DNA from: Gammaproteobacteria bacterium
GTDB taxonomy: Bacteria; Pseudomonadota; Gammaproteobacteria; JAJPIJ01
Reading direction: 5' to 3'
Length of the DNA stretch: 45,201 bases
Assembly: GCA_022072255.1 (NCBI GenBank)
Contig: JAJVHZ010000072.1
Location: forward strand, 2,967-48,167
A program made the translations under genes and the position numbers. Positions 16,912-24,923 of this stretch are shown one piece after another; positions within the stretch are counted from its first letter, which is position 1; the number at the start of each line of letters is the position of its first letter. The notes below the pieces were generated by a model. That model was not told the origin of the DNA. It saw only the letters and a list, made by a program, of their open reading frames with translations, and searched no databases.

Positions 16912-17640
16912 ATGGCCGACGACCAGAACCAGACCGATGACCTCGACCTCAATACGCTGAACGACGAGGAGCTCGTCGAGCAGATGCACGACGACCTCTA
17001 CAACGGCCTGAAGGAGGAGATCGAGGAGGGCACCCGTATCCTGCTCGCGCGCGGGTGGGCGCCCGAGAAGGTACTGAACCAGGCGCTGGTGGAGGGCATG
17101 CGTATCGTCGGCATCGACTTCCGCGACGGCATCCTGTTCGTGCCCGAGGTGCTGCTGGCGGCCAACGCGATGAAGGGCGGCATGGAGATCCTGCGCCCAC
17201 TGCTCGCCGAGACCGGCGTCGAGCCGATCGGCAAGATGGTGATCGGCACGGTCAAGGGCGACATCCACGACATCGGCAAGAACCTGGTGTCGATGATGAT
17301 GGAGGGCGCGGGCTTCGAGGTCATCGACATCGGCATCAACAACCCGGTGGACAGCTACCTCGCGGCGCTGGAGGAGCACGAGCCCGACATCCTCGGCATG
17401 TCGGCGCTGCTGACCACCACCATGCCCTACATGAAGGTGGTGATCGACGAGCTGAAGACCAGGGGCCTGCGCGACGATTACATCGTGCTGGTCGGCGGCG
17501 CGCCGCTCAACGAGCAGTTCGGCAAGGCGGTCGGCGCAGACGCCTATTGCCGCGATGCCGCGATCGCCGTGGAGACCGCCAAGGCGCTGCTGATGGCGCG
17601 CCGCGCGGTGCAGCGCCAGCCGCAGGCGATGGCGAACTGA
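16912..17640 (+). CDS. corrinoid (B12-binding) methyl carrier protein, MtbC/MttC/MtgC type
   Basis: A 242-residue protein with a very acidic N-terminus, a four-helix B12-binding cap (about residues 20-100; LVEGMRIVGIDFRDGILFVPE) and a cobalamin-binding Rossmann domain. The domain carries GDIHDIGKN, where His119 would be the lower axial cobalt ligand. GGAPLNEQFGKAVGADAY is the conserved C-terminal strand-loop. A GGAG ribosome site lies 10 bases upstream. It would take a methyl group from the MttB-like enzyme (23358-24923) and give it to THF through the methyltransferase at 20047. It starts a tightly packed run of six genes. Confidence 0.93.
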   Translation: MADDQNQTDDLDLNTLNDEELVEQMHDDLYNGLKEEIEEGTRILLARGWAPEKVLNQALVEGMRIVGIDFRDGILFVPEVLLAANAMKGGMEILRPLLAETGVEPIGKMVIGTVKGDIHDIGKNLVSMMMEGAGFEVIDIGINNPVDSYLAALEEHEPDILGMSALLTTTMPYMKVVIDELKTRGLRDDYIVLVGGAPLNEQFGKAVGADAYCRDAAIAVETAKALLMARRAVQRQPQAMAN

Positions 17641-17642
17641 GC

Positions 17643-18284
17643 ATGGCCGCAAGCGCGCCCACGGTCCTCGTGCTCGCCTGCGGCGCGCTGGCGCACGAGA
17701 TCATTGCCGTGCTGCGCGCCAGCGGCTGGACGCACGTCGCCGTGCAATGCCTGCCGGCGGCGCTGCACAACACGCCGGCCGCGATCCCCGGGCGGGTGCG
17801 GGCCGCGCTCGCCGCCGCGCGCGGCCGCTACGAGCGCGTCTTCGTCGCGTACGCGGACTGCGGCACCGGCGGCGAACTCGATCGGGTGTTGCGCGAAGAG
17901 GGCGCCGAGCGCATCCCGGGCGCGCACTGCTACGAGTTTTTCGCGGGCCGCCCGCTGTTCGCCGAACTGGCCGAGGAGGAGCCGGGCACGTTCTTCCTCA
18001 CCGGCTTCCTGGCGCGGCATTTCGATCGGCTGGTGATCAAGGGGCTGGGGCTGGACCGTCATCCGGAGTTGCTGCCGATCTATTTCGGCAACTACCGCAG
18101 GCTGGTGTATCTCTCGCAGTCCCACGCCCCCGACCTGCTCGCGCGCGCGCAGGAGGCGGCAGGGCGCCTGCATCTCGAGTTCGAACATCGTCACGTCGGC
18201 CACGACAATCTGGCCGGCGCGCTCACCCACGGCATCAGGACGGTATCGACAAATGGCAAAGCTGATCGTCGTCTCCTGGCGTGA
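17643..18284 (+). CDS. DUF1638 domain protein
   Basis: A 213-residue protein starting two bases after the corrinoid gene stop. The sequence (VLACGALAHEIIAVLRASGW; RVFVAYADCGTGGELDRVLREEG; GAHCYEFFAG; FFLTGFLARHFD) matches the DUF1638 family. That family is repeatedly encoded beside corrinoid methyltransferases. The conserved Cys residues in LACGAL, YADCGTGG and AHCYEF suggest a metal or corrinoid/thiol role, but no reaction is established to my knowledge. The following gene starts inside it (32-base overlap). The gene order suggests it is a working part of the methyl-transfer system. Confidence 0.85.
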   Translation: MAASAPTVLVLACGALAHEIIAVLRASGWTHVAVQCLPAALHNTPAAIPGRVRAALAAARGRYERVFVAYADCGTGGELDRVLREEGAERIPGAHCYEFFAGRPLFAELAEEEPGTFFLTGFLARHFDRLVIKGLGLDRHPELLPIYFGNYRRLVYLSQSHAPDLLARAQEAAGRLHLEFEHRHVGHDNLAGALTHGIRTVSTNGKADRRLLA

Positions 18285-18573
18285 CATCCCGGCGCAGGTC
18301 ATCGTCAAGCGCGGCCGCGAGGCCGCGAAGGTCGCGCTGTCGCCGCGCTTCCAGGTCGCCATCGATCGCGCCGCCATGCGCGCCGGCAAGGGCAGCTCGG
18401 ATGAGTACCTGGCCGACTGGAAGCGCACCGCGCGCGAGTGCGGCGATGACATCGAGAGCGAGGCCGCCGGCGAGGCGGCGCGACTGGAGGCCGTCTACAC
18501 CGACGCGGATCTCGAACGGCTGATCAGGAATCACGGCCTCGGCGAGTCCGCCGTCGCGGCCAGCGTGCACTGA
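18253..18573 (+). CDS. small protein of the 'virulence factor' family (PF13769-like)
   Basis: A 106-residue protein beginning MAKLIVVSWRDIPAQVIVKR and continuing RGREAAKVALSPRFQVAIDR. This is the pattern of a family named 'virulence factor' in databases for historical reasons. DEYLADWKRTA is a further conserved segment. No catalytic motif is obvious. It overlaps the DUF1638 gene by 32 bases and sits six bases before the MTHFR C-terminal-domain gene, so it is embedded in the corrinoid operon. A role in methyl transfer or assembly is more likely here than virulence. Confidence 0.8.
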   Translation: MAKLIVVSWRDIPAQVIVKRGREAAKVALSPRFQVAIDRAAMRAGKGSSDEYLADWKRTARECGDDIESEAAGEAARLEAVYTDADLERLIRNHGLGESAVAASVH

Positions 18574-18578
18574 TCGCC

Positions 18579-23260: not shown

Positions 23261-23280
23261 CCATCCCCTGCGCCGCGGAC

Positions 23281-23306
23281 AAAAAAACCGCCGTCGAAAC
23301 GGCGGT
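23281..23306 (-). terminator. Rho-independent terminator of the MttB-type gene
   Basis: On the minus strand an 8-bp perfect stem ACCGCCGT/ACGGCGGT with a four-base loop (23299-23306 with 23287-23294) is followed by seven T residues (23287-23281). It lies 52 bases past the stop of the gene ending at 23358. On the plus strand the hairpin lacks a T-run, so it serves the activator gene less well. Confidence 0.8.
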
Positions 23307-23357
23307 ATTCCTGGGGGAGGAACAACAGAGCTTTCGAAGCGGCGGCGCCGCCGGCGA

Positions 23358-24923
23358 TCAGACGTTGGAGTCCGGGAACGAGCTCTTGCGGCGATTGATA
23401 TAGTCGAGCAGCGCCTCGTCGATCGCGGGGTCGAGCGGCGGCGCCTCGTACTCGGCCAGCATCTTCTTCCATTGCGCGTTGGCGCGCTGCGCCATGTCCC
23501 TGGCCCCTTCCGCCTCCCACTGCTCGTAGCTGTTGTTGTCGGCGAGCGGCGAGCGGTAGAAGGCGCTCTCGAAATTCATCTGCGTGTGCGTGCAGCCGAG
23601 GAAGTGCTTGCCGGGACCGACCTCGCGCAGCGCGTCCAGCGCCTGGCCGTTCTCGGAGAGATCCACGCCCTGCAGCATGGTGTGCATCATGCCGGCCTGG
23701 TCGCAGTCCATCACGAACTTCTCGTAGCCCATCGACAGGCCGCCTTCCAGCCAGCCGGCGGTGTGCAGGACGAAATTCACGCCGGCAAGACAGGTCGGCA
23801 GCAGCGTCTGCGCCGCCTCGTAGGCGGCCTGCGCGTCGGCGACCTTGGAGGCGCACAGCCCGCCGCCGGAGCGGAACGGCACGCCCAGCCGCCGGGCGAG
23901 GCTCGCCATGGTGTAGAGCACCAGCGCCGGTTCCGGCGTGCCGAAGGTCGGCGCGCCCGACTGCATGGAGATCGAGGAGGCGAAGCTGCCGAGGATGCAG
24001 GGGCAGCCTGGACTGATGATCTGCACCAGCGCCAGGCCCGCCAGCGCCTCGGCCAGCGTCTGCGCGCAGGTGCCTGCCACCGTCACCGGCGCCATGGCGC
24101 CGGCGAGGATGAAGGGCGTGACCAGCACGCCCTGGTTGTTGCGCGCGTAGACCTTCAGCGCGCCGAGCATCGTTGCGTCGTAGGTCAGCGGCGAGTTGAC
24201 GTTGATGAGACTGACGGTCACCGCGCGCGGCCGGCCGGTCTCCTCGTCGATCCACCGGTCGCCGAAGAGGATCTTCGCCATCTCCACCGTGTCCTCGGCG
24301 CGCGAGGGATGGGTCACGGAGCCCATGAAGGGTTTGTCGCTCAACTTCATGTGGCTGTACACCATGTCGAAGTGGCGCTTGTTGACGGGCAGATCGACCG
24401 GCTCGCAGATGGTGCCGCCGGAGTGGTGCAGCCACGGCGTGGAATACGCGAGCTTCACGAAGTTGCGGAAGTCCGCGATGGTGCCGTAGCGGCGGCCGTT
24501 GTCGAGATCGCGCACGAAGGGCGAGCCGTAGGCCGGCGCGAACACCGTGTTCCCGCCGCCGATCTGCACGCTGCGCGCCGGATTGCGGGCGTGCTGCGTG
24601 AACTCCCGCGGCGCGCTCGCCCGGATGACGGACCGCGGCATGCCGCGCGGGAAGCGCACGCGCGTACCCTGCACGTCGGCACCGGCCTTGCGCCAGATCT
24701 CCAAGACCTCGTCGTCCTCGCGGAACTCCAGCCCGATCTCCTCCAGGATGGTGTCGGCGTTGCGCTCGATGAGGGCCAGGCCTTCCTCGTCCAGCACCTC
24801 GTAGCAGGGGATCCGGCGGGTAATGTAGGGCACGGAAGCGGTGGCCCGCGCCTGGCGGGCGGCGCGCTTGGCCTCTCGTCCGCCGCCGCGGCGCGAGCGT
24901 GTGGCCTCTTGGGTATCGGTCAT
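23358..24923 (-). CDS. MttB-superfamily methylamine/betaine:corrinoid methyltransferase, non-pyrrolysine
   Basis: A 521-residue full-length protein of the trimethylamine methyltransferase (MttB) family. There is no in-frame amber codon, so it belongs to the Pyl-lacking branch that includes glycine betaine methyltransferase MtgB. Typical segments are CYEVLDEEGLALIERNADTI, WLHHSGGTICEP, GSVTHPSRAEDTVEMAK, LVTPFILAGAMAPVTVAG, GSFASSISMQSGAPTFGTPE and LHTAGWLEGGLSMGYEKFVM. The N-terminal 30 residues are Arg-rich (RSRRGGGREAKRAARQAR). It would transfer a methyl group from a quaternary or tertiary amine to the corrinoid protein at 16912. Glycine betaine is the best guess given bet, dgc and sox genes nearby. 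It is divergent from a GbdR-like regulator. Confidence 0.93.
   Translation of the reverse strand: MTDTQEATRSRRGGGREAKRAARQARATASVPYITRRIPCYEVLDEEGLALIERNADTILEEIGLEFREDDEVLEIWRKAGADVQGTRVRFPRGMPRSVIRASAPREFTQHARNPARSVQIGGGNTVFAPAYGSPFVRDLDNGRRYGTIADFRNFVKLAYSTPWLHHSGGTICEPVDLPVNKRHFDMVYSHMKLSDKPFMGSVTHPSRAEDTVEMAKILFGDRWIDEETGRPRAVTVSLINVNSPLTYDATMLGALKVYARNNQGVLVTPFILAGAMAPVTVAGTCAQTLAEALAGLALVQIISPGCPCILGSFASSISMQSGAPTFGTPEPALVLYTMASLARRLGVPFRSGGGLCASKVADAQAAYEAAQTLLPTCLAGVNFVLHTAGWLEGGLSMGYEKFVMDCDQAGMMHTMLQGVDLSENGQALDALREVGPGKHFLGCTHTQMNFESAFYRSPLADNNSYEQWEAEGARDMAQRANAQWKKMLAEYEAPPLDPAIDEALLDYINRRKSSFPDSNV

Follow-up and report, generated by a model that had tools for sequence, protein, structure and literature searches.

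A corrinoid methyl-transfer cassette as a putative glycine betaine demethylase in an oxygen-using gammaproteobacterium

The 45,201-nucleotide stretch of DNA analysed here (the window; positions 2967–48167 of contig C28) belongs to a 4.27 Mb genome (G000) of 128 contigs and 95.5% completeness, and carries between positions 16912 and 24923 a cassette of genes for corrinoid-dependent methyl transfer, surrounded by genes of choline, betaine, dimethylglycine and sarcosine metabolism. In a quick RpoB tree with 19 rows the genome falls within Gammaproteobacteria, its nearest rows by path being a gammaproteobacterial metagenome-assembled genome (MAG) and Steroidobacteraceae MAGs; its order is represented in the genome collection by four genomes of at least 80% completeness. 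Five heme-copper oxidase matches exceed their cut-offs in this genome. Judged by its gene content, the cassette very probably encodes an MtgBCD-type demethylase dedicated to glycine betaine, which would operate in an oxygen-using cell.

Genes of the cassette

Both ends of the span coincide with gene ends, the ATG of mtgC at 16912 and the inferred ATG of mttB at 24923, and the following genes lie between them (THF, tetrahydrofolate; MTHFR, methylene-THF reductase).

16912..17640, plus strand: mtgC, corrinoid-binding methyl carrier (PF02310/PF02607; DxHxxG motif; ATG at 16912)
17643..18284, plus strand: DUF1638 accessory protein (PF07796, 98 bits)
18253..18573, plus strand: small PF13769 ('virulence factor') protein (PF13769, 82.6 bits)
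18579..19037, plus strand: metV-like Cys-rich protein, putative Fe-S subunit of MTHFR (PF12225, 92.5 bits)
19034..20050, plus strand: metF, divergent MTHFR, the second of the genome (PF02219, 118 bits)
20047..20955, plus strand: mtgD/mtgA-like methyl-corrinoid:THF methyltransferase (NCBIfam PRK07535, 365–367 bits, cut-off 259; PF00809)
21245..23260, plus strand: RACo-type corrinoid reductive activase with 2Fe-2S ferredoxin and ASKHA domains (PF14574, PF17651, PF17650, PF00111; PDB 3zyy, 337 bits)
23358..24923, minus strand, start inferred: mttB/mtgB-type putative betaine:corrinoid methyltransferase, non-pyrrolysine (PF06253, 786 bits)

The genes from mtgC to mtgD form a plus-strand operon in the order listed, with four-base overlaps (ATG over the preceding stop) at both the metV/metF and metF/mtgD junctions, followed after a gap of 289 bases by the RACo gene and, on the opposite strand, by mttB. 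A first-pass annotation of this DNA, drawn from the letters alone, had listed a corrinoid carrier, a non-pyrrolysine MttB, a methyl-THF methyltransferase, an Fe-S/ASKHA activator and an MTHFR, set between dgc/sox and bet/cho genes; domain matches recover every one of these parts in that setting, and add three operon genes beyond the list, encoding the DUF1638 (PF07796), PF13769 and MetV-like PF12225 proteins. The MtgBCD set is complete in one genome, with a PF06253 substrate subunit, a PF02310 carrier and a PF00809 methyl-THF subunit, and the activase (domains RACo_C_ter, RACo_middle, RACo_linker and Fer2) and DUF1638 protein are present as well. The MttB frame is open under translation table 11, aligns to PF06253 positions 1–500 and has no in-frame amber codon. 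A pyrrolysine-type MttB was rejected on the grounds that the reading frame is open under the standard code. Among proteins of known structure its best match is 4yyc (757 bits), with 442 bits to 2qne/9yce.

The two less familiar members of the operon were characterised further. The MetV-like protein has seven invariant and one nearly invariant Cys in 36 sequences, and its predicted structure is weak across the Cys-rich part; these eight conserved residues would fit Fe-S clusters, and MetV may act as the Fe-S partner of MetF. The PF13769 protein has a good AlphaFold model (mean predicted local distance difference test score 87.9) with no match among PDB folds at E<=0.001, and its residues W9, R10 and D11 are invariant. 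Its family name of 'virulence factor' looks wrong here, the gene being present in 25 of 30 cassettes that hold MtgC and MtgD, and it may have a role in the pathway. An Rfam scan gave no match at the gathering scores.

Recurrence of these genes was examined in a census of 100 loci searched for complete cassette open reading frames (ORFs). Eighty of these hold listed relatives of the window MttB, for which a scan of the genome collection gave at least 80 loci at 70–80% identity; their hosts are betaproteobacteria, gammaproteobacteria (among the two, Rhodoferax, Azoarcus, Aromatoleum, Denitromonas, Amphritea and Motiliproteus) and some alphaproteobacteria; the other 20 came from a sample of 370 genomes of the class. 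Both mtgC and mtgD were complete in 30 loci, and among those metV and metF occurred in 30/30, DUF1638 and RACo each in 29/30, and PF13769 in 25/30. Since this gene set recurs in 30 loci with mtgC and mtgD, the cassette is more than a chance neighbourhood.

Flanking genes and the substrate of MttB

To the left of the cassette lie SoxBDAG, two GbdR-like regulators, DgcA, DgcB, EtfA and EtfB, and to its right a further GbdR-like regulator, BetA, BetB, SdaA, BetI and ChoXWV, as follows.

378..1841, minus strand, longest ORF: GbdR-like AraC regulator (NF052371, 443 bits, cut-off 480)
1502..6925, minus strand: soxG, soxA, soxD, soxB, heterotetrameric sarcosine oxidase (TIGR01372 and TIGR01373 over cut-off; TIGR01375, 111 vs 144 bits; PF04267)
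6987..8060, plus strand, longest ORF: more distant GbdR-like AraC regulator (NF052371, 183 bits, cut-off 480)
8105..10279, plus strand, longest ORF: DgcA-like dimethylglycine demethylase subunit (PF00724, NAD/FAD-binding domains)
10374..12383, plus strand, longest ORF: DgcB-like Fe-S subunit (DUF3483, CCG, 4Fe-4S domains)
12349..14287, plus strand, longest ORFs: etfA and etfB, electron transfer flavoprotein (ETF; NF051845, 335 bits, cut-off 600; NF051844, 270 bits, cut-off 350)
25111..26142, plus strand, start inferred: GbdR-like AraC regulator, divergent from mttB (NF052371, 439 bits, cut-off 480)
28127..31341, minus strand: betA and betB, choline to glycine betaine (TIGR01810, 792 bits; TIGR01804, 690 bits; both over cut-off)
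33284..34660, plus strand: sdaA, serine dehydratase (TIGR00720, 707 bits, over cut-off)
34685..38884, mixed strands: betI (minus), choX, choW, choV (plus), regulator and choline uptake (TIGR03384, TIGR03414, TIGR03416, TIGR03415, all over cut-off)

With these neighbours a continuous route may be drawn. MttB/MtgB would demethylate glycine betaine to dimethylglycine, loading the one methyl group onto the cob(I)alamin of MtgC, and MtgD would pass the methyl from MtgC to THF, substrate and methyl flow here following those of relatives. MetF, probably together with the Cys-rich MetV, would convert methyl-THF to methylene-THF for one-carbon (C1) oxidation and serine formation, and RACo, aided by the DUF1638 protein, would re-reduce accidentally oxidised cob(II)alamin, both roles again following those proposed for relatives. 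Dimethylglycine would then pass to DgcAB/ETF and sarcosine to SoxBDAG, and glycine and a C1 unit would yield serine and, via SdaA, pyruvate.

Some further genes of the window call for brief mention. A sorbosone/glucose dehydrogenase-like gene (26304–28115, plus strand) and a gene for a DadA-like FAD enzyme (15426–16742, plus strand) lie inside the betaine cluster. A tRNA-Ser called by ARAGORN at 11680–11763 (plus strand) falls within the dgcB frame and is probably a false positive. In the intergenic regions of the window no GbdR binding site was identified. An integron integrase-like gene (41716–43101, minus strand) consists of two ORFs in one frame with an in-frame stop between them, of which one matches the N-terminal and the other the C-terminal part of IntI models, and is adjoined by an N6/N4 DNA methylase gene (43124–44167, minus strand).

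Residues of the predicted binding pocket also bear on the substrate. Docking in the Desulfitobacterium hafniense enzyme MtgB predicts betaine to be held by Y94, N199, R309 and H345 together with an aromatic residue at 353, F353 (PMC6855144). The corresponding positions are Y, N, R, H and G in the window MttB, in 4yyc and in 99/99 window-type relatives, so that the first four predicted betaine residues are invariant, whereas they read F, C, Y, Y and G in the trimethylamine MttB (7xcm), and the 18 paralogs at 44–56% identity vary at pocket positions, most at 94 (Y in 12/18). The only other PF06253 protein of the genome, a second MttB on contig C50 (26% identity), has G, P, S and T at positions 94, 199, 309 and 345; with no pocket residue of five and no adjoining corrinoid protein, it was rejected as the betaine enzyme. 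In a quick tree of 61 rows all 57 proteobacterial rows exclude D. hafniense MtgB (SH-aLRT 99), the branching order of the proteobacterial groups not being settled by this tree.

Several of these observations weigh against a betaine demethylase. F353 of MtgB is replaced by G in the window MttB and in all 99 relatives, and the group containing the window MttB also holds 4yyc and paralogs of possibly other substrate, with D. hafniense MtgB outside it. MtgC stays below the cut-offs of the NCBIfam MtgC models (NF047996, the best, 204 vs 370 bits; another, 171 vs 310 bits), the activase scores 400 bits against AcsV with its cut-off of 800, and the GbdR-like proteins all fall short of the GbdR model (443, 439 and 183 vs 480 bits).

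The absence of F353 would also suit an MttB acting on a different quaternary amine (choline itself, carnitine, proline betaine, gamma-butyrobetaine), with betaine handled otherwise. MttB-family enzymes with such substrates are known (including in PMC12478193), and the 44–56% paralogs lie beside DgcA- or Sox-like genes in some class genomes. Nevertheless this alternative is unlikely, for the window encodes both BetAB, which converts choline to betaine, and DgcAB, whose substrate would be the dimethylglycine produced; GbdR-like regulators flank the cassette, four of the five residues predicted to hold betaine are conserved without exception, and nothing else in the genome scores over cut-off as a betaine demethylase. 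Taken together, gene context, regulators, pocket residues and the co-occurrence with DgcA described below point to glycine betaine as the probable substrate.

Other betaine enzymes in the genome and among relatives

GbcAB had been noted as absent from the window, and the corrinoid route was proposed to replace it. Genome-wide, none of gbcA, gbcB and bhmT has a match over cut-off: the best GbcB match (NF058606) has 58.5 vs 500 bits, and for GbcA (NF058607) only two Rieske alpha subunits were found, side by side on contig C5, at 116 and 123 vs 670 bits. No PF02574 protein of the genome exceeds the Bhmt/MtgE cut-off (NF005718, 338 bits). Two such proteins exist, a full MetH on C22 (116 bits to that model) and a C79 protein that lies below every NCBIfam cut-off and gives no match to the Bhmt model at E<=1e-15. 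Since some 4.5% of the genome is possibly missing, these absences are provisional. Two of the loci mentioned have features of their own. On C5 a frame of 650 amino acids (L009, 1423–3375, minus strand) combines a TetR regulator of BetI type with a Rieske oxygenase resembling GbcA/CntA, an odd fusion, and is followed by the second Rieske oxygenase and an MFS transporter. The C79 protein (L095) is remotely homocysteine S-methyltransferase-like, and its gene is divergent from that of an FtrA/GbdR-like AraC regulator.

The C5 pair, both of them GbcA/CntA-like, raises the question whether the corrinoid route serves low oxygen only, a Rieske oxygenase (this pair, or one missing from the assembly) acting in air. 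One of the pair is framed with a BetI-type domain, the genome is 95.5% complete, and among relatives 2/50 carry GbcA over cut-off and 18/50 a match of at least 400 bits. Denitrification is known in the genera of several relatives. Against this, the C5 proteins reach 116–123 of 670 bits and have no GbcB partner over cut-off, and the route is presented as that of an aerobic bacterium in PMC12478193, making a role confined to low oxygen improbable.

The same survey bears on methionine. MetH (2056 bits) is complete with its own activation domain, PF02965, and a canonical metF (contig C14, 312 bits) is separate from that of the cassette. PF02607 is found in MetH and the window MtgC only, leaving one free-standing corrinoid carrier and one cassette in the genome. 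MtgC and MtgD have homologues among the modules of the Phaeobacter split methionine synthase, and Ruegeria pomeroyi uses the two proteins for both functions (PMC12478193); it is nonetheless highly improbable that the cassette is primarily such a synthase with betaine as a sideline, given the complete MetH, the separate canonical MetF, the lack of MtgE/Bhmt over cut-off and the absence of a homocysteine-binding module from the cassette. A methionine synthase reading of the cassette was rejected on the strength of the complete MetH and the failure to find MtgE. With a complete MetH, and with GbcA, GbcB and Bhmt all lacking a match over cut-off, the cassette is best regarded as catabolic and unneeded for methionine.

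Co-occurrence was assessed in the class sample, with presence of MttB and DgcA each set at E<=1e-100. MttB was found in 22/370 genomes (21 at >=65% identity) and DgcA in 21/370, and both in 14, where 1.2 were expected (one-sided Fisher test 4e-15, relatedness ignored). These 14 genomes represent eight families, and the test's neglect of kinship tempers the result. The DgcA matches may include relatives with other N-methyl substrates, eight of the 22 MttB genomes have no DgcA at this threshold, and MttB and GbcA are both missing, at the thresholds used, from five of the 21 genomes with DgcA (G003, G077, G107, G188 and G337, the last with a DgcA of just 35%); all of this likewise counts against a betaine demethylase. 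G003, of the same genus as the window genome, has a DgcA at 91% and no window-type MttB, and its contig ends inside DgcA.

GbcA itself exceeds its cut-off in one genome of the class sample (G242), and in G317 it is split into two adjoining frames (423 and 399 bits); both genomes have DgcA and lack MttB. Because GbcA exceeds cut-off in just 1/370, the absence of genomes carrying MttB together with GbcA is weak evidence. G128 and G151, which have MttB without DgcA, show GbcA-like matches below cut-off (321 and 266 bits). In 50 of the 80 listed relative genomes, GbcA was over cut-off in two (Motiliproteus and Amphritea), a GbcA-family match of at least 400 bits was present in 18 (those two included; Rhodoferax lacus, 629 bits), and a match at E<=1e-40 in 33. 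The first two counts tell against replacement, and on all three strict mutual exclusion of MttB and GbcA was rejected as a rule. The proposed replacement of GbcAB fits the window genome, as far as its gene content indicates, and does not extend to the clade, many relatives holding GbcA-family proteins and some both systems.

Gene neighbourhoods were compared in two sets. The 80 listed loci include a cassette gene in 35, at least one betaine/choline gene in 53, SoxA or SoxB in 21 and a GbdR-like gene in 24. In the 27 with full flanks, 19 have a cassette gene, 23 a betaine/choline gene and all 27 at least one of the two kinds; the 13 loci with neither kind are all shorter. In the class sample, 20 window-type MttB stretches were set against 19 paralog stretches, the corrinoid cassette being present in 9/20 vs 0/19 and a GbdR-like gene in 8/20 vs 1/19. 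Less favourable to a betaine demethylase are the presence of DgcA or DgcB (>=45% identity) in just three of the 80 listed loci, the lack of both cassette and GbdR in 6/20 window-type stretches, and the occurrence of DgcA beside paralogs in 3/19 loci and beside window-type MttB in 0/20. The three paralogs with an adjoining DgcA-like gene (L148, G067:C38; L151, G340:C25; L153, G308:C4; 50–52% identity) lack the corrinoid cassette; perhaps, as a guess, they act on another quaternary amine, the demethylated product passing to an N-methylproline-type demethylase.

Relation to known corrinoid systems

The first-pass annotation described the MtgB/MtgA route as one of anaerobes, which is out of date since a report on aerobic marine bacteria of September 2025, and the core claim, a corrinoid betaine route in an aerobe without GbcAB, is already published there (Mausz et al. 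2025, PMC12478193). In that work the aerobic marine bacterium R. pomeroyi lost growth on betaine when either mtgC or mtgD was mutated; the mtgC mutant also failed to consume betaine, and added methionine restored neither ability to it. Proteins of higher abundance on N-osmolytes included MetF2, DUF1638, RamA and two members of the MtgB family. The mutants it reports are of mtgC and mtgD and none of mtgB, leaving the substrate subunit inferred there too, which is a further point against assigning betaine to the window MttB by analogy. The paper describes colocated clusters from Alpha-, Gamma- and Deltaproteobacteria, and its count of holders includes some genomes that carry metH alongside mtgBCD (PMC12478193).

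What is added here is a beta- and gammaproteobacterial form in which the whole set lies in one place, is independent of MetH, and includes MetV (30/30 loci) and PF13769 (25/30), both of which are proposed as candidate pathway parts. The marine finding of 2025 would thereby be carried to further beta- and gammaproteobacteria, including Rhodoferax lacus, isolates named palsa and fen, and marine genera such as Amphritea. A self-contained cassette untied from methionine would be genetically cleaner than R. pomeroyi for studying how a cob(I)alamin-dependent demethylase stays active in air, and may bear on an oddity in PMC5764234, namely why some MetH bacteria keep a RamA-like protein and DUF1638.

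With MtgBCD of R. pomeroyi (PMC12478193) the cassette shares the PF06253, PF02310 and PF00809 modules, a metF paralog adjoining mtgD, DUF1638, a RamA-like activase, the downstream steps and an aerobic host. It differs in that the parts form one cluster here and lie apart there. A complete MetH is present here and no MtgE, so that no shared methionine role is needed, and the MtgE-shared methionine use, non-defining in PMC12478193, has no counterpart. MetV and PF13769 lie in the operon here, whereas the terms 'MetV', 'DUF5981' and 'virulence' are absent from the main text of that paper. The D. hafniense route comprises an MttB-family MtgB, a corrinoid carrier and a methyl-corrinoid:THF methyltransferase (PMC12478193). 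Its MtgB and the window protein have in common the non-pyrrolysine MttB family and residues Y94, N199, R309 and H345, but the window protein scores 442 bits to 2qne/9yce as against 757 to 4yyc, stands on a separate branch and does not keep F353, and D. hafniense is anaerobic. With the split methionine synthase of Phaeobacter inhibens the cassette shares homologous carrier, pterin-binding, activase and DUF1638 modules, the DUF4445 (RamA-like) and DUF1638 proteins having been tied to B12 reactivation by Phaeobacter fitness data; in contrast to that system, it has no homocysteine-binding module, and a classical MetH is present (PMC5764234).

A last comparison concerns the folate step. Among the papers listed in searches for MetV in proteobacteria or aerobes, most concern acetogens and other anaerobes, and no claim to a first report is made. 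Tentatively, and with more doubt than confidence, we suggest that this cell, while using oxygen, oxidises methyl groups along a line assembled from modules usual in anaerobes (an MttB-type methyltransferase, RACo and an acetogen-type MetVF), in which MetVF would be reversed as a methyl-THF dehydrogenase, its electrons passing, like those of DgcAB, through Fe-S clusters to the ETF/quinone pool and not to NAD(P)+, and in which the PF13769 protein would be a further dedicated part. In Clostridium ljungdahlii, MetVF reportedly pairs two heterodimers and contains 14.9 iron per enzyme (PMC8760232). The acetogen-type MTHFR and the cassette share a MetF beside a PF12225 Cys-rich protein; in contrast to the acetogen enzyme, the putative pair described here belongs to a catabolic operon in a bacterium that uses oxygen, and would be expected to work in the oxidative direction.

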